In this document: piece after piece, positions 1 through 55,564 of the stretch
How the letters are laid out: every line of letters starts with the position of its first letter
How positions within the stretch are numbered: position 1 is the first letter of the stretch
Position numbers and translations under genes: made by a program
The notes under the pieces: generated by a model
What the model was told of the DNA's origin: nothing
Seen by the model: the letters and a program-made list of their open reading frames with translations, nothing else
The model's database searches: none
Source: Ilyobacter polytropus DSM 2926
GTDB taxonomy: Bacteria; Fusobacteriota; Fusobacteriia; Fusobacteriales; Fusobacteriaceae
Reading direction: 5' to 3'
NCBI RefSeq assembly: GCF_000165505.1
Contig: NC_014633.1
Location: 682,001-746,000 of the forward strand
DNA length: 64,000 nucleotides

Positions 1-1255
1 TTAATCCTGTTACAAATCCTTCACCCCTCTTATTGGATCTGAATATTTCCTGTACAAGAGCCACAACAAATAAAACCATTATAGCATTGAAAGCTGAAAG
101 TTTTGGAGAATGTCTCATTACCATAAGTTCATATACTAGCATCCCAAGAGGTATCAAATAGTGTCCCCCTGATTTAACCGTCTTAAAAAAGTTAGGAAGA
201 TCGGCTTTTGGAAGACCCTTTAAGCCCAATTTTAAAGCTTCTAAATGAGTTATGTAAAATAAAGCAAAGTATGATACAAAGGCCGGCACCGCTGCTGCTT
301 TTATCACTTCTATATATGAGATTCCTAGATATTCGGCTATGATAAAGGCGGCGGCTCCCATTATAGGTGGCATCAGTTGACCATTTGTACTTGCGGCAAC
401 TTCTGTAGCTGCAGCTATTTTGGCGGGATATCCGGCTTTTTTCATCAAAGGAATTGTAAAGGTTCCCGTAGTAACAACATTTGCTATACTTGATCCAGAA
501 ATAAGTCCACTTAAGCCACTTGATACAACAGAGGCTTTTGCAGGTCCACCCTTGTATTTACCCAACAAAGAGAATGATAGATCGTTAAAAAACTGCCCTG
601 CCCCGACTTTATCAAGGAGTGCTCCAAGTAGTACAAACAAAAATACCGTGTTTGCTGAAACATCCAACGGGATTCCGTATATCCCTTCTGTGGATAAAGA
701 TATCTGACTGATATATTTTGTAAGGGACACCCCTTTGAAAGCAAATATTCCGGGCATATTAGGCCCCATAAAGGCATATGTTGATATCAGTATGGATATT
801 ATCGGCAAGGCCGGCCCGATCATTCTATATGCTGCTAAAAGTACAATTATAACTGTACTTGTTCCAAAAATATAGTCAGTCTGGTTTGGCATCCCAGATC
901 TCGACGCTATCCCTCCCTTGTCTAAAATTATATAAAGGATTACCCCTATAGACACAAAGGCAAGCAGCATGTCAGACAGCGGAATATAGTCTATTCTGTG
1001 TAAAAACTTCAATTTTTTCAGGGGTTTCTTAACTGCAGGAATACTTAAAAAAGCTAATACAACTGCAAATGTGAGATGTACAGCCCTTGTAGAAACACTG
1101 TCTAGTATTAAAAATTTAGGTAATGCCAACTGAAATACCGCCCATAAAATTGATATCCCAGATATTAATATTCTATCTATTTTTCTGTTGTTTCTTATTT
1201 TACCAGTTTCTTCTAGCAAAAGCTCTTCTGCTATACTTTCATCATTTTCAGACAT
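1..1255 (-). CDS. TRAP transporter fused permease (DctQM type), 3' end cut by window
   Basis: Membrane permease of a TAXI-type tripartite ATP-independent periplasmic transporter, which takes up an organic or amino acid using an ion gradient. The frame is open from the ATG at 1255 down to base 1 (about 418 residues visible, C-terminus missing). After a short polar N-terminus come many hydrophobic segments. The DctM-like part contains a loop with repeated G-S-S-I-A-N-V-V-T-T-G-T-F and the following M-K-K-A-G-Y, typical of the TRAP large subunit. The start is fixed by GGAAGGAG seven bases upstream. The binding-protein gene lies just upstream in the same direction, so the two form one transporter. 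The window edge alone truncates it; no frameshift is visible. Confidence 0.9.
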   Translation of the reverse strand, partial: MSENDESIAEELLLEETGKIRNNRKIDRILISGISILWAVFQLALPKFLILDSVSTRAVHLTFAVVLAFLSIPAVKKPLKKLKFLHRIDYIPLSDMLLAFVSIGVILYIILDKGGIASRSGMPNQTDYIFGTSTVIIVLLAAYRMIGPALPIISILISTYAFMGPNMPGIFAFKGVSLTKYISQISLSTEGIYGIPLDVSANTVFLFVLLGALLDKVGAGQFFNDLSFSLLGKYKGGPAKASVVSSGLSGLISGSSIANVVTTGTFTIPLMKKAGYPAKIAAATEVAASTNGQLMPPIMGAAAFIIAEYLGISYIEVIKAAAVPAFVSYFALFYITHLEALKLGLKGLPKADLPNFFKTVKSGGHYLIPLGMLVYELMVMRHSPKLSAFNAIMVLFVVALVQEIFRSNKRGEGFVTGL

Positions 1256-1410: not shown

Positions 1411-2430
1411 TTACATAAGATCAGAATTAATGAATTTATCTAACCCAACTTCTTTATAATATTTTATCGCTCCTTTATGAAGAGGTGCAGATAACCCCTG
1501 TAACATGCTTTCTTTAGTTAAAACTGAATATGCAGGGTGAAGTTTTTTGAATTCTTCAAAATTTTCGAAAACTTCTTTAGTGATAGCATATACTATCTCT
1601 TCACTTTCTTCAGCAGATGTTACAAAAGTTGCCTTTACCCCTACTGAATCTATATCTTCTTCATTTACTGCGTTAGGATAATTTTTTGCCTCTATTTTAG
1701 CCTTTGCATAATAAGGCTTTTCTTTAATAAGTTCTTCTATTTCACTTCCAACTATAGGAACTATTTTAACTTTAACTCTTCCTGATGTAGCCTCTTTTAT
1801 AGCTCCACTAGGATGTCCTACTGTATAGAAAAATGCATCTATTCTTTCATCTTGAAGTAGCCCAGGTGCTTCCACAGCTTTTACATTTTCTGCTTTTATA
1901 TCATCTTCTGAGAACCCGAGCGTTCCAAGAACATCTAACGAGTTTTGTAGCTGACCAGATCCTACATTTCCGATATTAACTTTTTTACCTTTTAGATCCT
2001 TTGCTGAATTTATCCCTGCTTCTGATGATGCTACTAAAGTAATTGCTTCCGGGTGAATTGAAAATACTGATCTAAGATCACTCTGAGCTCCTCTTGATTC
2101 CCACTCAGCTTTACCAAAATATGCTTGATACTGTCTATCAGACTGAGCCACTCCAAAATCAAGGTCTCCTGCTAAAACTGCATTAATATTATATACAGAC
2201 CCTGCTGTAGATTCTACCGTCGCCTTGATATTGTAGTCTTCTTTTTTATTGATCATTTTACTTATTGCCCCGCCTGTAGGATAATAAACTCCAGTTACTC
2301 CACCTGTTCCTATGGTGACAAACTGTTTTTTATTGGTTGTTGCCGAGTCTGACTTTTCTGAACCACCACAGCCTACAAATCCAAGTGCCAAAATTAAAGA
2401 TACTGCTGTTCCTAATAAAAACTTTTTCAT
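1411..2430 (-). CDS. TAXI family TRAP transporter solute-binding lipoprotein
   Basis: Extracytoplasmic substrate-capture protein of the TRAP transporter encoded downstream. 339 residues from ATG 2430, which follows a strong GAGGGGGGA ribosome site; an earlier in-frame Met at 2472 lacks a site and sits before the signal peptide. The N-terminus is a lipoprotein signal (MKKFLLGTAV..., lipidated Cys about residue 21, then a Ser/Asp-rich linker). The body opens with I-G-T-G-G-V-T-G-V-Y-Y-P-T-G-G, the hallmark of the TAXI family, which often binds glutamate, glutamine or other dicarboxylates. The substrate cannot be read from sequence. Its transcript starts behind the attenuator RNA at 2599-2708, so expression is probably conditional at the RNA level. 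Confidence 0.92.
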   Translation of the reverse strand: MKKFLLGTAVSLILALGFVGCGGSEKSDSATTNKKQFVTIGTGGVTGVYYPTGGAISKMINKKEDYNIKATVESTAGSVYNINAVLAGDLDFGVAQSDRQYQAYFGKAEWESRGAQSDLRSVFSIHPEAITLVASSEAGINSAKDLKGKKVNIGNVGSGQLQNSLDVLGTLGFSEDDIKAENVKAVEAPGLLQDERIDAFFYTVGHPSGAIKEATSGRVKVKIVPIVGSEIEELIKEKPYYAKAKIEAKNYPNAVNEEDIDSVGVKATFVTSAEESEEIVYAITKEVFENFEEFKKLHPAYSVLTKESMLQGLSAPLHKGAIKYYKEVGLDKFINSDLM

Positions 2431-2598
2431 AAATTTCCCCCCTCTGATTTTATATTGGCATGCTATATACACACCATTTTATTTTTAAACTAAATTTGTT
2501 TAAAATTAAATTCACTTAAATATTTAATATTTTTACTCAGACAAATTATTTTTTAATTTCATTTTTATAAAATTTCATTCAGATATTTCAAATAAAAA

Positions 2599-2708
2599 AA
2601 GTCATAGTACTCCCATTTAAAAATAAAATGAAAGTAAAATGACTTTATATCTTTAAAGGGTAAAATAAAGCTGAACTTTATCTTTTCTTACAAAGATGCC
2701 TTTTACTT
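2599..2708 (-). promoter_or_regulatory. Candidate riboswitch/attenuator RNA, copy A (upstream of TAXI gene)
   Basis: Read on the minus strand, this is a conserved ~65-nt domain followed by an intrinsic terminator (stem bases 2599-2645, then a U-run). In the domain, segment ATCTTTG (2697-2691) pairs with TAAAGAT (2655-2649), and AAAGG pairs with CCTTT, in interlocked order. That is an H-type pseudoknot enclosing a hairpin with loop UUCAG (about 2663-2686). The same arrangement recurs at 53624-53733 and 53821-53930. The 5' segment AAGTAAAA can also pair with TTTTACTT in the terminator arm, a possible antiterminator. I recognise no known riboswitch class; ligand unknown. Confidence 0.72.
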
Positions 2709-2859: not shown

Positions 2860-4239
2860 TTAACGTCGACCCATAACACGTTTTATAGCTTTTTCATGTG
2901 CATTTATAGTAAAGTTTATATCATCAATAGTATGAGCTGTGGACATCGAATATCTATTTAAAGGCTTAGAATAAACTCCCAATTCTAATAAAGCATAATC
3001 AATCTCTTTTCTTAATTTACTATCAGCAGAGTTCATATCACGATAATTTTTGATCTTTTTGTCAGTGAGGACAATATTAAAGATACTACCCATACCTACT
3101 GTTTGCATTGGAATATTATAGGATTTATATAATCCTTCTAGTTTTTCTCTCAAGTAGTTGGTATTTTCAATCAAAGAATTCATAACATTATCTTTTTCTA
3201 GCTCATTGATCGTTGCCAGTCCTGCAGCCAATACAGTAGGATGTCCGTTATAGGTACCGCTGTGAAAAAGACCCAAAGATTTATCATCATTGCTGGCACT
3301 AGGTGTAAGTATATCTCCGTATCCAGTTGGGCTGACAATTTCAAGTATCTCTTTTTTCCCTCCTACCGCTCCTACTGGAAAACCTCCTCCTAAAACTTTC
3401 CCCAATGAAGTCAGATCCGGCTTTATACCGTAGATGTCTTGAGCTCCTCCAAGAGTTAATCTAAACCCTGTTTTTACCTCGTCATATATTAGTAAAATAT
3501 CTAATTCTTCTGTAACTTTACGTAATTCTTGCATAAATTCAAGATCTGCAGGTATAAATCCACTTTGTACCGGCTCCATGATTACCGCTGAAATATCATC
3601 TGCATGTTTTTTTAGTATTTTTTTTGTTGATTCTATATCGTTAAAAGGTAAAATTACAGTGTTGTTTACATAATAATCAGAGATACCTCTTGATTCTTTA
3701 ATTGTTTTAGGTTCTTTAGCATCACCAGCTTTTTGAATATCTGGATGTACACTTAGTAAAACCTGATCATAACCACCGTGATAATGGCCTTCAAATTTTG
3801 CTATTTTAGATTTTCCATTATAAGCCATGGCCATTCTTATGGCAAATAAAGTTGCTTCTGTTCCGGAATTTGTAAACCTAACCATTTCTATACCAGAAAA
3901 TAATTCAATTATTTTTTTTGCCATAGTGGTTTCATTTATATGTGGTGTCCCAAATATTGCAGTTCCGTTGACCTGTAGTTGTTTATTTACAGCTTCTACA
4001 ACACTAGTATGTCCATGACCCAATATCATCGCCCCATAACACAGTAAATAATCTACATATTCGTTCCCGTCCACATCATAGAGCTTGGATTTACCCGCCT
4101 TTTTCATCACTATCGGGTGAGGTTCGAAATATTTAATGTTTGCTGAAACACCACCTGGTATAACTTCACAGGCCTTTTCATACATCTTTCTAGAGTTACC
4201 AGTTTTTTTCTCGTAAAGTTTAAACTCCTCATTGATCAT
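2860..4239 (-). CDS. Class III PLP-dependent aminotransferase, glutamate-1-semialdehyde aminomutase-like
   Basis: 459 residues. A pyridoxal-phosphate enzyme of the HemL/class III aminotransferase fold; it moves an amino group on an amino-acid or amino-aldehyde substrate. Visible landmarks are the N-terminal V-I-P-G-G-V-S, N-S-G-T-E-A (cofactor phosphate), H-Y-H-G-G, Y-D-E-V-K-T-G-F and the Schiff-base lysine in L-G-K-V-L-G-G-G-F-P. No haem-synthesis gene lies nearby. It is instead upstream of a TAXI transporter in the same orientation, so a catabolic or racemase/aminomutase role on the transported compound is more likely than haem synthesis. The ATG follows GGGGG about 8 nt upstream. A TTTGTC-repeat promoter at 4322-4366 matches the one of the downstream transporter. 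Confidence 0.82.
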   Translation of the reverse strand: MINEEFKLYEKKTGNSRKMYEKACEVIPGGVSANIKYFEPHPIVMKKAGKSKLYDVDGNEYVDYLLCYGAMILGHGHTSVVEAVNKQLQVNGTAIFGTPHINETTMAKKIIELFSGIEMVRFTNSGTEATLFAIRMAMAYNGKSKIAKFEGHYHGGYDQVLLSVHPDIQKAGDAKEPKTIKESRGISDYYVNNTVILPFNDIESTKKILKKHADDISAVIMEPVQSGFIPADLEFMQELRKVTEELDILLIYDEVKTGFRLTLGGAQDIYGIKPDLTSLGKVLGGGFPVGAVGGKKEILEIVSPTGYGDILTPSASNDDKSLGLFHSGTYNGHPTVLAAGLATINELEKDNVMNSLIENTNYLREKLEGLYKSYNIPMQTVGMGSIFNIVLTDKKIKNYRDMNSADSKLRKEIDYALLELGVYSKPLNRYSMSTAHTIDDINFTINAHEKAIKRVMGRR

Positions 4240-4727
4240 TTTTAATCCCCCCGTATCTAAAATTTAATGGTTAGTTAAAATTTTAGTCTAAATAATAAAT
4301 TGCTATAAATATATTCTACTGGGGACAAAAGATGACTATTATAGACAAAATAATACAATATTTTTTTATTTTTTATAAATATCTCTAATTTTATTTAGCA
4401 ATCGCCTTAATTATCTAAGAAAATAAAGCATAATTTAAAAATAAACTAAATTTATTCAGCCCCTGACTTTATTTTTTGATTTTTCTAGTATGTAAATCAG
4501 CAAAATAATTAGCCAACTAAAATAAAAAAACTTTATAAGAATTCCTGTATAAGATAATCAGAAAAATAGCGCTTATCATGATGATACACTAAAAAATTGA
4601 TAATCAAATATAAAAACAGACCCTCAGAATATTTTATTCTCGAGAGCCTGTAGATTTATTTAGTAATTAAGTTTTATAGAAAACACAAAACTTGTTATAA
4701 CCAATTTTAAAATTCAAATTTAATTAA
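4240..4727. other. Intergenic region: promoter motif and terminator, no gene
   Basis: 488 bp, very AT-rich. It holds the promoter-like TTTGTC repeat block for the aminotransferase (4322-4366, with TATATT near 4308-4313) and the terminator of the upstream Hdr-Flx-Frd operon (4616-4651). I see no coding sequence. Confidence 0.6.
4616..4651 (-). terminator. Terminator of the hdr-flx-frd operon
   Basis: On the minus strand an imperfect ~15-bp stem (ACAGGCTCTC... / ...GAGGGTCTGT) is followed by UUUUUAUAUUU. It lies about 75 bp after the frdA stop. A close copy of this hairpin and about 50 bp of flank recurs at 25871-25965. Confidence 0.75.
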
Positions 4728-30386: not shown

Positions 30387-30480
30387 TGGCGGAAATGTGT
30401 AGGAATCGAACCTACCGACGACTCACGCCGCCCACACGGTTTTGAAGACCGGGAAGAACACCAGTTGCTCATACACTTCC
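30387..30480 (-). tRNA. selC: tRNA-Sec (UCA anticodon)
   Basis: 94 nt including an encoded CCA (30389-30387). The acceptor strands GGAAGTGT and ACATTTCC make the 8 bp typical of Sec tRNA. The anticodon loop C-U-U-C-A-A-A reads UGA. A long variable arm (GGGCGGCGTGAGTCGTC) and a T-arm with GTTCGATTC follow. It is adjacent to selA/selB, which lie divergently upstream. Its 3' part is repeated at 25972-26029 and, decayed, at 22871-22931. Confidence 0.95.
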
Positions 30481-49543: not shown

Positions 49544-50662
49544 TTAATATAAATCTTTATATATAGTCATTATCTGTTTTTTTGATAAGTCTGCATAATT
49601 ATTTGATAAAAGTCTCTGTTGTTTTTCAATTACACTTTCAGTAAATTCTAAAATTTCTTTTTCTTCCATTCCAAAGAAATTAAGCTTTTTCTTTTCCCAT
49701 ATAGAATTAAAGAGTTGATCTAATGCTGCATAAACATCGGATTCTTTATCTAGTTCCAATGTTGAAATTACCAAGTCATTGAATTTTTTTATTTTACCCT
49801 CTGGAGCTATCTCAGTATAAGCTTTAAAAACCGGTGTAAAAAATTCATAGTTACACTCTCCATGTGCCACATGGTATTTTCCCCCAAGCGGATATGATAA
49901 GGCGTGTACCGGGCCTACACCTGTATTTCCAAAAGCTATTCCTGCATAATTACTCCCTATAAGGAAATCCTCTATGATTTCAGAATAACAGTCTTTCCCA
50001 TTTTCAGCTATTACCTTGTACCCCTTTAGGATAATCTCTATTGCATTTTGAGCAAAAATATCTGTATAGGGGTTTGACCCAGGTGAAACAAAGGACTCTG
50101 CCGCATGTACAAGGGCATCTAAAGTGCTGAATGCAAAGAACTTATAAGGAATATTTCGTAGAAGTTCAGGAATGAGAACTGCATAATCAGGTAGGAACTC
50201 TTCTATTCCTATACCCATTTTTGTCCCTTTTGATTTTATTTCTGCTACTGAATATGACGTGACCTCACTCCCTGTACCACAGGTTGTAGGGATGGCAATT
50301 AATTCTTTTATTTTATTGAACTCAATTTTTCTTTCAAACACATCTAGAGTTTCACTTACGTTTTCAATAACAAGGAATTTGGATATATCCATTACTGCTC
50401 CGCCTCCGATTGCGATCACCCTGTCAAAATCGTGTTGAGAAGCTTCTGCAAGTACTTTATCTATGATCTCATCTGATGGTTCTCCGTCTCCATATTTTTT
50501 GGGAGATATAAATATGCTTTTCAGATCAAGTTTTTTTATAAATTTGTTATAAATCGAGTTATTTACTACTATTAGATCTTTGTCACTGACACCGAATTCT
50601 AAAACAAACTCACTAAAGTTATCAAATTTATGAATTTCAGGTTGTAATTTAAATAATTTCAT
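49544..50662 (-). CDS. Iron-containing alcohol dehydrogenase
   Basis: 372 residues. NAD(P)-binding G-G-G-A-V-M-D-I-S-K, and the Fe-coordinating histidines in L-V-H-A-A-E-S-F and H-A-L-S-Y-P-L-G-G-K-Y-H-V-A-H-G. Group III alcohol dehydrogenases include succinate-semialdehyde reductase (4-hydroxybutyrate dehydrogenase). Following a GABA-type aminotransferase and a permease, that is an attractive role: it would reduce the aldehyde formed by transamination. Other aldehydes cannot be excluded. Confidence 0.82.
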   Translation of the reverse strand: MKLFKLQPEIHKFDNFSEFVLEFGVSDKDLIVVNNSIYNKFIKKLDLKSIFISPKKYGDGEPSDEIIDKVLAEASQHDFDRVIAIGGGAVMDISKFLVIENVSETLDVFERKIEFNKIKELIAIPTTCGTGSEVTSYSVAEIKSKGTKMGIGIEEFLPDYAVLIPELLRNIPYKFFAFSTLDALVHAAESFVSPGSNPYTDIFAQNAIEIILKGYKVIAENGKDCYSEIIEDFLIGSNYAGIAFGNTGVGPVHALSYPLGGKYHVAHGECNYEFFTPVFKAYTEIAPEGKIKKFNDLVISTLELDKESDVYAALDQLFNSIWEKKKLNFFGMEEKEILEFTESVIEKQQRLLSNNYADLSKKQIMTIYKDLY

Positions 50663-50776: not shown

Positions 50777-52120
50777 TTAACTTAAAGCTTTTTCAAGTGA
50801 TTTCTCAAGAACATCCAGACCATATTCCAACTGCTCATCAGTCATTACCAAAGGTGGAAGGAATCTGAGGACGTTCCCATAAATTCCTGCACTTATGAAT
50901 ATTACTCCCTCTTGAAGGCTTTCTTTTGTTATTTTCCCTATAATTTCCTTATTAGGTTCTTTTGATTCAGGATCTGTTATGAACTCCACAGCACACATTG
51001 CTCCAAGCCCTCTTATATCACCGATAACAGGATATTTTTTTTGCATTTCAGAAAGTCTTGATTTAATCTTTTCACCGATAGCATTAGCTCTTTCTGTTAA
51101 TTTTTCTTTTTCTATTTTTTCAAGGACTTTGATAGCAGCAGCACAGGCAACAGGGTTACCGCTAAAAGTCCCACCTATAGATCCCACAATTGGATTTTCC
51201 ATTATTTCCTCTTTTCCGACTACTGCGGCTAAAGGCATTCCGGCAGCTAGTGATTTGGACATTGTCATCATATCAGGCTCTATATCAAACTGCTCAGATG
51301 CAAAGAGAGTACCTGTTCTGGCAAAACCTGCCTGTATTTCGTCAACTATGAAAAGAATATTATTATCATTGCATATCTTTTGAAGTCTTTGTAAATATCC
51401 CTTTGGAGGCACTATGAATCCCCCTTCACCCTGGACAGGTTCCACTACTAAAGCGGCTATCATATCAGCCGAAAGTTCACCTTTAAGCAAGTCTTCTAAT
51501 TTTTGAGCACACTCTAAATTGCAACCAGGATGTTTTTTTCCAAATTGACATCTGTAACAATAAGGTGACGGAATTTTATGTGTGTCACTGTTATATGGCG
51601 CAAACCCATATTTATAAGGCTTTACCTTACTTGTAAGTGTCATAGACATATAAGTTCTTCCGTGGAAGGCGTTTTCCAAGGATAAAATCATCGGTTTACC
51701 AGTATATTTTCTTGCAATTTTAACTGCATTTTCTACAGCCTCGGTACCACTGTTTATAAGTAAAGCTTTTTTATCGTAATCCCCAGGAGTCGCTGCAACC
51801 AGTTTTTCGGCTAAATTAATATAGGGTTCATACATGGCAACATTAAAAGATGTGTGTATATTTTTTTCAACCTGTGATTTTATTGTTTCTACTATTTCCT
51901 CGTCACAGTGTCCGACATTTTGTACCCCTATACCTGCTGCAAAATCAACAAATACATTGCCGTCAATATCCTTTATAAGAGCACCTTTGGCCTCATCTAC
52001 AAATACCTCTGTAGAATAACTGACACCTCTAGCAACATATTTGAGTCTTTTTTCCAAAAGTTCCTTAGACTTTGGACCTGGAATTGCCGTTGTAATTTTT
52101 GCATTTTTTTCTAAAATCAT
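50777..52120 (-). CDS. gabT: Class III aminotransferase, 4-aminobutyrate aminotransferase-like
   Basis: 447 residues. PLP motifs N-S-G-T-E-A-V-E-N-A, F-H-G-R-T-Y-M-S-M, F-I-V-D-E-I-Q-A-G-F-A-R-T-G and the lysine in T-M-S-K-S-L-A-A-G-M-P. A cysteine-bearing P-Y-C-Y-R-C-Q-F-G insert occurs in many GabT proteins. Predicted to transaminate GABA or another omega-amino acid. ATG 52120 follows GGAGGT; the in-frame ATG at 52135 does not. It lies between the APC permease and alcohol dehydrogenase genes, same strand. Confidence 0.83.
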   Translation of the reverse strand: MILEKNAKITTAIPGPKSKELLEKRLKYVARGVSYSTEVFVDEAKGALIKDIDGNVFVDFAAGIGVQNVGHCDEEIVETIKSQVEKNIHTSFNVAMYEPYINLAEKLVAATPGDYDKKALLINSGTEAVENAVKIARKYTGKPMILSLENAFHGRTYMSMTLTSKVKPYKYGFAPYNSDTHKIPSPYCYRCQFGKKHPGCNLECAQKLEDLLKGELSADMIAALVVEPVQGEGGFIVPPKGYLQRLQKICNDNNILFIVDEIQAGFARTGTLFASEQFDIEPDMMTMSKSLAAGMPLAAVVGKEEIMENPIVGSIGGTFSGNPVACAAAIKVLEKIEKEKLTERANAIGEKIKSRLSEMQKKYPVIGDIRGLGAMCAVEFITDPESKEPNKEIIGKITKESLQEGVIFISAGIYGNVLRFLPPLVMTDEQLEYGLDVLEKSLEKALS

Positions 52121-52204
52121 GATTGGTACCTCCAATATATGTTTAAATTTTTATATCCTATAGTTTTTCTTTTTATTTTAAAGAATAAACGCTTTATTCT
52201 CCAT

Positions 52205-53599
52205 TTATCCTAGAGCCTCTTCCTCTGCATGCTTTCCGAATTCAACATATGACATTTTTGACCATGTATAAAATACAGCACCTAGAACAAACCACCCAGT
52301 TACAATAGCCCATTCATAAGACACAAGTGCAGAAGGAGCTCCCGGAAGATAAAGGAATATACATAATCCGCTCAATAGAACAGCTATTGAACCTACTAAA
52401 ACACCTTTTCTAACCTTGTAAGGTCTAGGCATATCAGGCTCTTTATATCTTAGGACTATAAATGATATTGATACTATAAGGTAAGATATCACTATGGTAA
52501 ATCCGCCTGCATCAACAAGCCAAACAAGCATTTTTCTCCCTAAAAGAGGAGCCAGTGTGGATAATATACCGATTAAAAGTACAGCATTTACAGGTGTTTT
52601 GTATTTTGGATGCAGTTTCCCTAGGAATTCAGGAAGCATTTTTGAATCAGCCATAGAGTATATAGCTCTGCTTCCGCCTACAAAGAATGAGTTCCAGCTT
52701 GTTATTATTCCTCCGATTCCGGCTATAACCATTATCTTAGATGCTAATGGACTGTCAAAGAATACAGCTTTCATTGCATCGGCAGTTGCAAGCTTAGAAG
52801 CTGCTAGCGCACTGCTGTCCATAGCAAGGGATACTCCATAAATTATCATTACATACCATATAACAGCCATAACAACTGAAAGTACTAATATTTGACCGAT
52901 CTTTTTAAATGGAAGATTTATCTCTTCTGCAGCCTGAGGGATAACATCAAATCCTACATACATAAAAGGTGTCATAACAGCTACTGCAAGAACCCCTTTG
53001 TTTCCGTCGCTGAAAAGTGTCGTGATATTGGCAGAATCACCGTTGACAACTGCTCCCCCGAAAAAGCTCAAGCCTACCGCCCCTATAATAAGAGTAAGTA
53101 CACCTTGCAAAAATGCAGCAGGTTTAACTCCGAAATAATTAATAACTGTTATTGCAATAGAGCTTATCATACCCACAAGTACCCAGGTAAAGTAAACGTC
53201 ATACCCTGCTACCGTATACATCTTTCCTTGTATATAGCCAGGCACCAGATATTCCAAAACAGTGGGAAAAGCCACAGCCTCAAAAGCCACTACTGACACA
53301 TATCCCAATATGATTGCCCATGTACATATAAAAGAAGCATTTGTTCCCAAAGCTCTCAGACTAAATACGTGTTCACCTCCGCATTTAGGCATAGCAGAAG
53401 TTAGCTCTGCATAAGTTAGTCCTACAAATAAAACCATAATTCCACCCATTATAAAGGCTATTATTGCTCCTAGGGTACCGGCAGTTTCTATCCAGCTACC
53501 TGCCATAACTACCCATCCCCAACCTATCATCGCACCAAAGGCAAGAGCCAATACATCTTTTTTTGATAATACCCTGTCAAAAGATTCCTGTTTCGTCAT
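52205..53599 (-). CDS. APC-superfamily amino acid permease
   Basis: 464 residues, about 12 hydrophobic segments. The first contains G-A-M-I-G-W-G-W-V-V-M-A-G-S-W, the substrate-binding helix-1 break of the APC fold. Y-A-E-L-T-S-A-M-P-K-C-G-G-E is the conserved cytoplasmic loop. It likely imports the amine or amino acid handled by the adjacent aminotransferase. It is the first gene behind two tandem copies of the attenuator RNA and has GGGGG before its ATG. Confidence 0.87.
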   Translation of the reverse strand: MTKQESFDRVLSKKDVLALAFGAMIGWGWVVMAGSWIETAGTLGAIIAFIMGGIMVLFVGLTYAELTSAMPKCGGEHVFSLRALGTNASFICTWAIILGYVSVVAFEAVAFPTVLEYLVPGYIQGKMYTVAGYDVYFTWVLVGMISSIAITVINYFGVKPAAFLQGVLTLIIGAVGLSFFGGAVVNGDSANITTLFSDGNKGVLAVAVMTPFMYVGFDVIPQAAEEINLPFKKIGQILVLSVVMAVIWYVMIIYGVSLAMDSSALAASKLATADAMKAVFFDSPLASKIMVIAGIGGIITSWNSFFVGGSRAIYSMADSKMLPEFLGKLHPKYKTPVNAVLLIGILSTLAPLLGRKMLVWLVDAGGFTIVISYLIVSISFIVLRYKEPDMPRPYKVRKGVLVGSIAVLLSGLCIFLYLPGAPSALVSYEWAIVTGWFVLGAVFYTWSKMSYVEFGKHAEEEALG

Positions 53600-53623
53600 A
53601 TTTTTACCCCCTTATTTAATAAA

Positions 53624-53733
53624 AAGTTATACTACCCATATTTGATAATTAAATAAAAGTAACATGACTTTATATCTTTGAAGGGTAAAATAAAGCTGAA
53701 CCTTATTTTTTCTTACAAAGACGCCCTTTACTC
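53624..53733 (-). promoter_or_regulatory. Candidate riboswitch/attenuator RNA, copy C (gene-proximal)
   Basis: Same fold as copies A and B, immediately before the permease. The pseudoknot helices are GTCTTTG/CAAAGAT (53722-53716 with 53680-53674) and AAGGG/CCCTT (53728-53724 with 53685-53681), around the UUCAG-loop hairpin. The terminator stem (53624-53670) is weaker than in copies A/B, with two mismatches, but keeps a U-run. The A-to-G change in the outer helix keeps pairing as G-U. Confidence 0.72.
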
Positions 53734-53820
53734 AATGAAAATTTTTCTGTTTTAATTTAACTTTGTAGTGGGATAGTTACGCTGTTAGAAAATACATTAT
53801 TTAGAACAATTAAAATAAAA

Positions 53821-53930
53821 AAGTCATACTACTCCCATTTAAAGATCAAATGAAAGTAACATGACTTTATATCTTTGAAGGGTAAAATAAAGCTGAACCT
53901 TATTTTTTCTTACAAAGATGCCCTTTACTT
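53821..53930 (-). promoter_or_regulatory. Candidate riboswitch/attenuator RNA, copy B (gene-distal)
   Basis: On the minus strand, pseudoknot segments AAGGG (53925-53921) with CCCTT (53882-53878) interlock with ATCTTTG (53919-53913) and CAAAGAT (53877-53871). A 9-bp hairpin with loop UUCAG (53884-53906) lies inside. A strong terminator follows: AAGTCAT..ATGACTT with inner 10-bp ACTTTCATTT/AAATGGGAGT (53821-53867), then U-run. A TATAAT at 53961-53956 lies about 25 bp upstream, so the domain is the very 5' end of the transcript. Two complete units in series precede the permease. Confidence 0.75.
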
Positions 53931-54391
53931 AATGAAAATCATTCTATTTAATGTCATTATATAGCCAGGTTTATATCTTTTCAGGGCATAAAAGAAAATC
54001 TCTTTTTTCTGATAAGATTTAACCTGCTTTTTATTATCCGTAAAAAGTCCAGTGAGAGATTTTTATTTTCTCTTGGTGAGAAATTTTTTAATCAGCTCTC
54101 AAATTTGCTATAATTAATTGTAATTTTTTTTTAAATGAATTACAATGGATTACTATCCGAAAAATTTTGTGCTGGAGTTGAAAATAATATTTCTAAACCT
54201 TTTAATTTCACGACTAATATAGACTTATATGGAAAATCCATTGTGGTAAAAACACTTGGGTTCAGTTTTGTATTTTAATATCGTTGTAGAAAAAATTGAC
54301 AAATGAATTATATAGAGATAATATTATTAATCAATGTAATTTTAGATTCTATCAAAGTGAAATATCAAATTATAGGTAGTGAGGTAAAAAA
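53931..54391. other. Intergenic region between permease leader and PucR-2
   Basis: About 460 AT-rich bases. Contains a TATAAT (minus, 53956-53961) for the permease transcript; the PucR-2 promoter must lie near its right end. No gene seen. Confidence 0.45.
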
Positions 54392-55564
54392 ATGGCTATG
54401 ACATTAAGAGAATTATATGAATCTACCAATAAAAGAGATATAAAATTAATCGCTGGTAAAAACGGTTTAGACAATGTGGTAAGATGGGCACATATGATTG
54501 AGGGCAAAGAGATATCAACTTACTTGGAAGGACAAGAACTTTCTTTTGTTACTGGTATCGCTTTGGGCAAGGACGAAAGTTTATTTGAACTAGTTAAGCA
54601 TACTTATTATAATCAAGCTAGTGGTATGGTTATAAATATAGGACCTTATATCGAAGGTATCTCAGAAGAAATTTTACAGTTTTGTGACGAGAACGACTTT
54701 CCTCTCTTCCAAATTCCATGGCATATTTACATGGCTAATTTCATAAAAGATTTTTGTTATCAGATTACAATATCAGACAGGATTAATATAGAGTTACTGT
54801 CTGCAATTAAAAATGCTATATTTTTCCCTGATCAAGAAAATTTATATAAACCTCAATTGGAAATACACAATTTTAGTGCCAACTGGCCATACTGTATTGC
54901 AATTATAGAGATCTTGGAAAACTCTACCGGTGAAATAATTGGTGATGAAAAGAGAGCTAAGTTATTAAAAAATATAGAAAATATCCTTATCTACTCTTAT
55001 AAGAGAACCTTTATATTTGAATTAAAAGGCAGATTTGTTTTGGTATTTGCTGAATATAGTGAAGATGAGATAAGAAATATTGTTCACGAAATAAAAAGAA
55101 AGTGCAGGGAAATTTTAAAGAAGAAAAATAAAATGTATTTTTGTATCGGAGAAACTTCTAAAAATATTGACGATATTTCAAAAAGCTACCACCAGGCAAT
55201 AAGTATATTAAAACTGCAAAAGAAAAGAGAAAATAGTGATGAAATTACTGCCTATAGTGAACTAGGCCTATATAAATTACTTTTATCTATGGAAAACAAA
55301 GAGGCTATGAGTAATTACTACCAAGAAACCTTAGAACCTTTAGCCGAATATGATAAAATTAATGGAACAGACTATATGATAGTATTAGATACTTATTTAA
55401 AAAATAATTGCAGCGTTAAAGAGGTCGCTGCACAACTCTTCTATCATAGAAATTCAATTAATTATAAATTATCAAAAATACAGGAGATCCTATCTTGTGA
55501 TCTGTCTCAGCTTAACACAAGACTTGTTTATAGTATAGCCTTGATGCTTCGAGAAATTATATAA
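54392..55564 (+). CDS. PucR-family transcriptional regulator (copy 2)
   Basis: 390 residues, collinear with the protein at 47499 and highly similar throughout (K-L-I-A-G-K, R-W-A-H-M-I-E, F-P-L-F-Q-I-P-W-H, and Y-H-R-N-S-I-N-Y-K-L-S-K-I at the C-terminal helix-turn-helix). It is divergent from the permease operon, the classic position for its activator. GTGAGG is a modest ribosome site. The two copies suggest duplication around the cluster with separate inducers, or shared control. Confidence 0.88.
   Translation: MAMTLRELYESTNKRDIKLIAGKNGLDNVVRWAHMIEGKEISTYLEGQELSFVTGIALGKDESLFELVKHTYYNQASGMVINIGPYIEGISEEILQFCDENDFPLFQIPWHIYMANFIKDFCYQITISDRINIELLSAIKNAIFFPDQENLYKPQLEIHNFSANWPYCIAIIEILENSTGEIIGDEKRAKLLKNIENILIYSYKRTFIFELKGRFVLVFAEYSEDEIRNIVHEIKRKCREILKKKNKMYFCIGETSKNIDDISKSYHQAISILKLQKKRENSDEITAYSELGLYKLLLSMENKEAMSNYYQETLEPLAEYDKINGTDYMIVLDTYLKNNCSVKEVAAQLFYHRNSINYKLSKIQEILSCDLSQLNTRLVYSIALMLREII

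Follow-up and report, generated by a model that had tools for sequence, protein, structure and literature searches.

A candidate transcription-attenuation leader shared by nitrogen-scavenging operons of Ilyobacter polytropus and its congeners

Why should one and the same leader RNA precede transporter genes that are not related to each other? This question is raised by a minus-strand leader of Ilyobacter polytropus DSM 2926 (copy A, 2708-2594(-)) that lies between an upstream class III aminotransferase gene (PF00202) and a downstream gene for a TAXI substrate-binding protein (PF16868), both on the same strand as the leader; positions refer to the window, the whole 64,000-nucleotide stretch of DNA analyzed here. 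The original prediction held that the window contains the same RNA three times, and that the other copies precede an unrelated transporter gene beside another class III aminotransferase gene. Our analysis bears this out: copies A, B (53930-53817(-)) and C (53733-53621(-)) are about 90% alike, and B and C lie 5' of an APC permease gene accompanied by its own PF00202 gene. The proposed boundaries of copy A, 2599 and 2708, were also well chosen, as its outermost helix, P0, begins at 2708 and its terminator stem finishes at 2599, with the U-run (2598-2594) lying just beyond.

The element is composed of a sensor hairpin, an enclosing helix and a long intrinsic terminator. The sensor hairpin comprises helix P1, a short nAG/CUn helix (P1b), an internal loop of approximately nAAA opposite URCC, and helix P2; it is enclosed by P0 (AAGUAAAnGGC with GUCnUnUUACUU), whose 3' strand doubles as the 5' arm of the terminator. 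In copy A, the P0 strands are 2708-2698 and 2643-2632, and the latter is part of the terminator stem that starts at 2645. This copy scores 98.2 bits with the R1 covariance model (E 3.5e-18, whole-genome search), and none of 200 dinucleotide shuffles folds as well (z -4.8). The leader consequently has the anatomy of a transcription attenuator, namely two exclusive helices that share one strand, one of them followed by a U-run.

Both helices find support in a MAFFT alignment of 25 terminator-bearing copies. P0 (columns 1-11 with 68-79) has standard pairs in 98.8% of its cells, P1 together with P1b in 92.9%, the terminator in 92.7%, and P2 in 92.0%, the last value being an under-count since P2 of the nif and ornithine-cyclodeaminase copies is shifted in the MAFFT output. 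The core plus P0 contains 27 double-changed cells versus 7.1 in shuffles and 1-9 in slid structures (in which pairing drops to 36-59%), and the core plus terminator contains 42 versus 12.2; the shuffle control ignores relatedness, the slid-structure control keeps it, and, as the copies are paralogues and orthologues, these cell counts overstate the number of covariation events. Columns 11-68-111 read C-G-C in 21 copies and A-U-A in three, and columns 10-69-110 read G-U-A in 19 copies, G-C-G in three and A-U-A in two. P0 and the terminator hence covary through shared columns, and the antiterminator and the terminator are therefore mutually exclusive. In an alignment that includes divergent copies (A7), columns 10-72 and 11-71 form standard pairs in 27/27 cases, and P0 is kept in copies that have diverged to 74-83% identity or beyond.

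These data also bear on the structural part of the original prediction. The suggested 8-bp antiterminator, AAGTAAAA with TTTTACTT, is real and represents the outer part of P0. From the proposed pseudoknot-terminator, the terminator stands, as it covaries across the 25 copies, but the pseudoknot finds no support: the GG presumed to pair with CCC pairs in P0 instead, with covariation. For the AAGGG/CCCUU pairing, column 8 is able to pair with C in just 7/25 copies, and column 10 changes from G to A in two copies with the proposed C partner unchanged; an alternative register fails as well.

Computed folds capture both states. P0 forms with a probability of 0.75-0.92 in 19/19 leaders that were ended before the terminator 3' arm, and the terminator forms in complete leaders that include this arm and end at the right U-run; the full-leader folds for copies A, D, I, P, K and M ended at an internal T-run with the 3' arm missing and stand outside this terminator result, and a separate full fold of copy A contains the terminator hairpin.

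Some copies consist of the sensor only. They keep AUCUU/AAGAU, AG-nAAA and RCCCU and are devoid of GGC/GUC and the terminator; because they retain the sensor without P0 and terminator, the sensor is separable from the expression platform. Their spacing is variable, about 28-120 nt. Hairpin loops in the aligned copies are UUCAG, UCUAG or YNACC-like, and a second sensor sub-type (A7; L212, L213, L214, L062, L063) is marked by YNACC as its conserved P2 loop, with G-C as the closing pair, unlike the window copies with their UUCAG/UCUAG loops. Conserved unpaired residues are found in the internal loop and in an AUAAA linker.

At the second window locus, copies B and C are arranged in tandem 5' of an operon for the APC-type permease, the class III aminotransferase (its start codon was chosen by us; the longest open reading frame begins at 52135) and an iron alcohol dehydrogenase. 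Copy C has a weaker terminator, which lies about 20 bases 5' of the permease start; its full leader reaches z -2.4 against dinucleotide-preserving shuffles. Upstream of B, a sensor-only copy (54029-53958(-)) without P0 and terminator (R1, 42.1 bits, E 4.3e-5, whole genome) is the first of three sensors in tandem. The predicted number of three copies is consequently correct for those with a terminator in the window, but there is a fourth, sensor-only one, and about 19 exist genome-wide. Divergent from the permease operon, a gene for a PucR-family regulator (PF07905, PF13556) is located at 54392-55564(+), and it perhaps encodes a specific activator of this operon.

Table 1. Positions and gene contexts of the leader copies and neighboring genes (CM, covariance model)
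Feature	Position or context	Strand or source	Evidence
Copy A sensor hairpin (P1, P1b, P2) inside helix P0	2632..2708	-	R1 CM and pair counts
Copy A intrinsic terminator	2594..2645	-	sequence, fold, covariation across 25 copies
TAXI substrate-binding protein, first gene 3' of copy A	1411..2430	-	PF16868, E 1.1e-82
TAXI/TRAP membrane subunit, extends past window start	2..1255	-	PF06808, E 2.3e-52
Class III aminotransferase 5' of copy A	2860..4239	-	PF00202, E 1.6e-62
Copy B: P0, sensor hairpin, terminator	53817..53930	-	R1 CM 96 bits; fold z -6.1
Copy C: P0, sensor hairpin, terminator	53621..53733	-	R1 CM 91.2 bits; folds
Sensor-only copy upstream of B	53958..54029	-	R1 CM
Amino-acid permease (APC family) 3' of B/C	52205..53599	-	PF13520, E 1.4e-37
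Class III aminotransferase, B/C operon	50777..52120	-	PF00202, E 9e-130
Iron-containing alcohol dehydrogenase, B/C operon	49544..50662	-	PF25137 and PF00465
Terminator-bearing copies A, B, C	window	-	CM
Terminator-bearing copy	before M20/M24/TRAP operon	own genome	CM
Terminator-bearing copy	before xanthine-dehydrogenase-type molybdenum hydroxylase operon	own genome	CM
Terminator-bearing copy	before Na+/H+-antiporter-family transporter with class I/II aminotransferase	own genome	CM
Terminator-bearing copy	before nifH	own genome	CM
Terminator-bearing copy	before APC permease with ornithine cyclodeaminase	own genome	CM
Terminator-bearing copy	at end of nifV, leading to modABC	own genome	CM
Terminator-bearing copy	before NRAMP-like transporter with D-glutamate cyclase	own genome	CM
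Terminator-bearing copy	before BMP-type ABC operon	own genome	CM
Terminator-bearing copy	before branched-chain-type ABC operon	own genome	CM
Terminator-bearing copy	before glnK-amtB-glnK	own genome	CM
Terminator-bearing copy	before nitrilase with TRAP transporter	own genome	CM
Terminator-bearing copy	before NCS2 (purine) permease operon	own genome	CM
Doubtful candidate	before Asp-Al_Ex permease and CoA-transferase/mutase operon	L225 8421-8496(-), L229, L217	P0 and sensor, no U-run
Doubtful candidate	before fumarase	CM search	E 0.004

The genome-wide search for the motif and its downstream genes that had been suggested along with the prediction was carried out. Blastn of the window's own genome detected nine places; with three covariance models (R1 from ten copies, R2 from 25 copies with helix P0 added, R3 with divergent copies added), we accepted 15 clear terminator-bearing and four extra sensor-only copies, carried by about fourteen operons. 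The sensor-only copies precede four of the terminator-bearing ones, and every clear copy is followed by an operon transcribed in the same direction. The idea of one RNA with a common ligand or trans-acting factor is supported.

The targets include PII-AmtB and nifH, both classical genes of nitrogen limitation; the nifV-mod targets serve the nitrogenase cofactor, and the remaining ones mostly import or degrade nitrogen compounds (Table 1). The view of two transporter families, each beside an aminotransferase, is accurate for A and B/C but too narrow for the genome: since the list includes glnK-amtB, nifH, nifV-mod, xanthine dehydrogenase, purine, branched-chain amino acid, nitrilase and other operons, it points to general nitrogen supply and not to an aminotransferase substrate. 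A narrower common substrate (GABA, beta-alanine, a keto acid) was considered, and none fits the whole list. Our computations thus assign these genes to a nitrogen-scavenging regulon (ammonium uptake, nitrogen fixation, amino-acid and purine use), and we infer that its members respond to nitrogen status. Even with search filters off, the element is missing from the leaders of one amtB gene, the second of two, and of the single glutamine synthetase gene found (GSIII type); consequently, this RNA is not the sole nitrogen control and the regulon is incomplete.

At the nifV target (L062 10556-10631(-); orthologues L069 and L077), the copy and nifV overlap in the final codons and stop codon of the gene, and the NifV C-terminus and the RNA structure thereby share sequence; small uncharacterized open reading frames (and modD in L077) follow before modABC. 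Neither doubtful candidate stands before an operon with an obvious role in nitrogen use. The one upstream of the CoA-transferase/mutase operon recurs in each of the three genus genomes (three species) and may be either a decayed copy or a case of chance conservation through an overlapping open reading frame.

Two congeneric genomes (G041, G042) carry many copies at the same genes, and G042 has two additional targets, one an SDF symporter with an Asp/Glu racemase, the other a membrane protein accompanied by a B12-binding protein. Of 98 Fusobacteriota genomes searched, only the three of this genus contain the element (R2, E <= 0.05); no convincing copy was found in the 95 others with R2 or R3, in searches whose stricter filters lose weak matches, and this absence serves as an empirical false-positive control as well. 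The one R3 match outside the genus (G091, E 0.034) is taken as chance. Weak R1 matches in G009 and G029 are not leader-like, as that in G009 lies inside an open reading frame and both are without a terminator; they were lost with R2. A loose DNA-pattern scan of wider genome contigs, which is no proof of absence outside Fusobacteriota, yielded at least 118 stretches; the 80 that were listed and re-scored look like chance, with an R2 E no better than 0.27. No match was present in a plasmid collection from which the nearest records to the host genome are possibly absent. As far as these genome sequences tell, the element is apparently restricted to the genus. Ten loci that bear the element, scanned against Rfam 15 with E cutoffs as permissive as 10 or 5, yielded nothing above any family's gathering score, and a search of open-licence papers turned up no account of this kind of element from Fusobacteriota. 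The sole Rfam 15 match in the whole window is a selenocysteine tRNA (RF01852, 64.4 bits; 30391-30480(-)), and its presence makes it probable that the organism makes selenoproteins.

Taken together, with a probability of about 0.78, the element is a transcription-attenuation leader of a genus-specific family that controls the nitrogen-scavenging regulon, and in which an effector in nitrogen shortage holds P0 and allows readthrough. P0 would be able to form first in the course of transcription, thereby masking the 5' arm of the terminator. A common effector that is active when nitrogen is short would bind the sensor hairpin and hold P0, and the polymerase would read on; without the effector, the 3' arm of the terminator would displace P0 and transcription would stop. 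Extra tandem sensor-only hairpins might sharpen or strengthen this response. One nitrogen signal would probably decide whether each target gene is read. From the position of P0, we infer that effector binding would turn the genes ON, presumably with a single effector acting at all copies; as an alternative polarity, an OFF effector may act on the sensor.

Within this attenuator explanation, the effector could be an RNA-binding antiterminator protein of no known family, possibly a dimer on tandem hairpins, a proposal that comes close to an even chance. The sensor is a simple imperfect hairpin with neither junction nor pseudoknot, sensor-only hairpins lie at variable spacing, the element is confined to one genus, and its core varies between two sub-types; the pan motif has been interpreted likewise from the same features (PMC2864571). 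Yet both known antiterminator families that we searched for are undetectable in the three genomes of the genus by HMM searches, which can miss divergent proteins: ANTAR (PF03861) was found in 0/3 versus 23/61 family genomes, and CAT_RBD (PF03123) in 0/3, with hits in four control genomes. Moreover, mini-ykkC reportedly proved to be a guanidine riboswitch. It had earlier been judged protein-binding on such features (PMC2864571). A true riboswitch for a nitrogen-status metabolite (2-oxoglutarate, glutamine or ammonium) falls somewhat short of even odds; it would account for the conservation of unpaired residues in the internal loop and AUAAA linker and for the failure to detect ANTAR and CAT_RBD, and tandem sensors in a nitrogen regulon are known from the glnA RNAs (PMC2864571), but the pocket is small, two core sub-types are tolerated, and the phylogenetic range is narrow. 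That the nitrogen regulon of the genus as such runs through tandem RNA sensors binding a metabolite directly, for instance 2-oxoglutarate or as a new glutamine riboswitch class, is a more tentative proposition. We slightly favor a protein over a metabolite because of the simple hairpin, the tolerance of two core sub-types and the occurrence in one genus, an argument weakened by the mini-ykkC precedent.

Other explanations fare far worse. ANTAR-protein antitermination of the NasR/EutV/AmiR type operates on leader hairpins before terminators in regulons of mostly nitrogen genes (PMC3369931), and its target RNAs resemble our element in the competition of a hairpin with an intrinsic terminator; but the domain is missing from the HMM results of all three genomes, the conserved unpaired residues sit in the internal loop, and dual hairpins with hexaloops carrying A at position 1 and G at position 4 were not found in the aligned copies, so that we judge it very improbable. 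Many similar copies in one genome might suggest a dispersed mobile repeat without positional link to transport genes, or an ordinary unregulated terminator. Co-directional placement of the clear copies 5' of operons, contexts that recur in congeneric genomes, covariation of the alternative helices and retention of P0 despite sequence divergence make either highly improbable. Leader-peptide attenuation draws on AATGGCATC, an ATG in the P0 strand of several copies, but copies A, B, C, D, E and F carry AAAAGGC, AAAGGGC or AAAGGAC there and have no ATG, and neither a common peptide nor a ribosome-binding site is visible; we regard it as the least probable of all.

How does the proposed attenuator compare with established systems? 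The glnA and Downstream-peptide RNAs (cyanobacterial glutamine riboswitches, RF01739 and RF01704) likewise lead nitrogen genes, including those for PII and ammonium transporters, and some are in tandem (PMC2864571). Our element, in contrast, belongs to a genus of Fusobacteriota and combines a single extended hairpin with an antiterminator/terminator platform; the RF01739 and RF01704 consensus had no match in the window and loci scanned. The ribonucleic antiterminators (RAT) of BglG/LicT-SacT systems are imperfect hairpins that overlap a terminator arm and are stabilized to antiterminate, in parallel to the role proposed for P0. RAT sites, about 30-nt hairpins, belong to sugar operons, and their CAT_RBD proteins are those undetected in our genus. 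Tandem glycine riboswitches share two homologous sensors with the platform on the last, yet our element differs from them in its simple hairpin, unrelated genes and absence of an Rfam match; the pan motif and mini-ykkC (guanidine-II) are small tandem hairpins before metabolic operons as well, but with other sequences, genes and organisms, and again without an Rfam match to our copies.

The best reading is consequently that of a new family within a known kind, the terminator/antiterminator leaders, unusual in covering a whole nitrogen regulon, in its tandem sensors, and in having no detectable known antiterminator. Bacterial nitrogen control at the global level is usually described in terms of DNA-binding regulators (NtrC, GlnR, NtcA) and PII proteins; here, by contrast, about fourteen operons, nifH and glnK-amtB included, share one RNA attenuator family without an Rfam match. 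Identifying its effector would reveal a nitrogen-sensing riboswitch of a new kind or else a new class of antiterminators that bind RNA, and the sensor-only copies provide natural minimal constructs for binding tests.

At the TAXI locus, look-alike boxes (GGGACAAA...GACAAAATAAnACAA) are found at 2752-2796 and 4319-4365, 5' of the TAXI leader and of the aminotransferase gene, respectively, and possibly represent a shared transcription-factor site.
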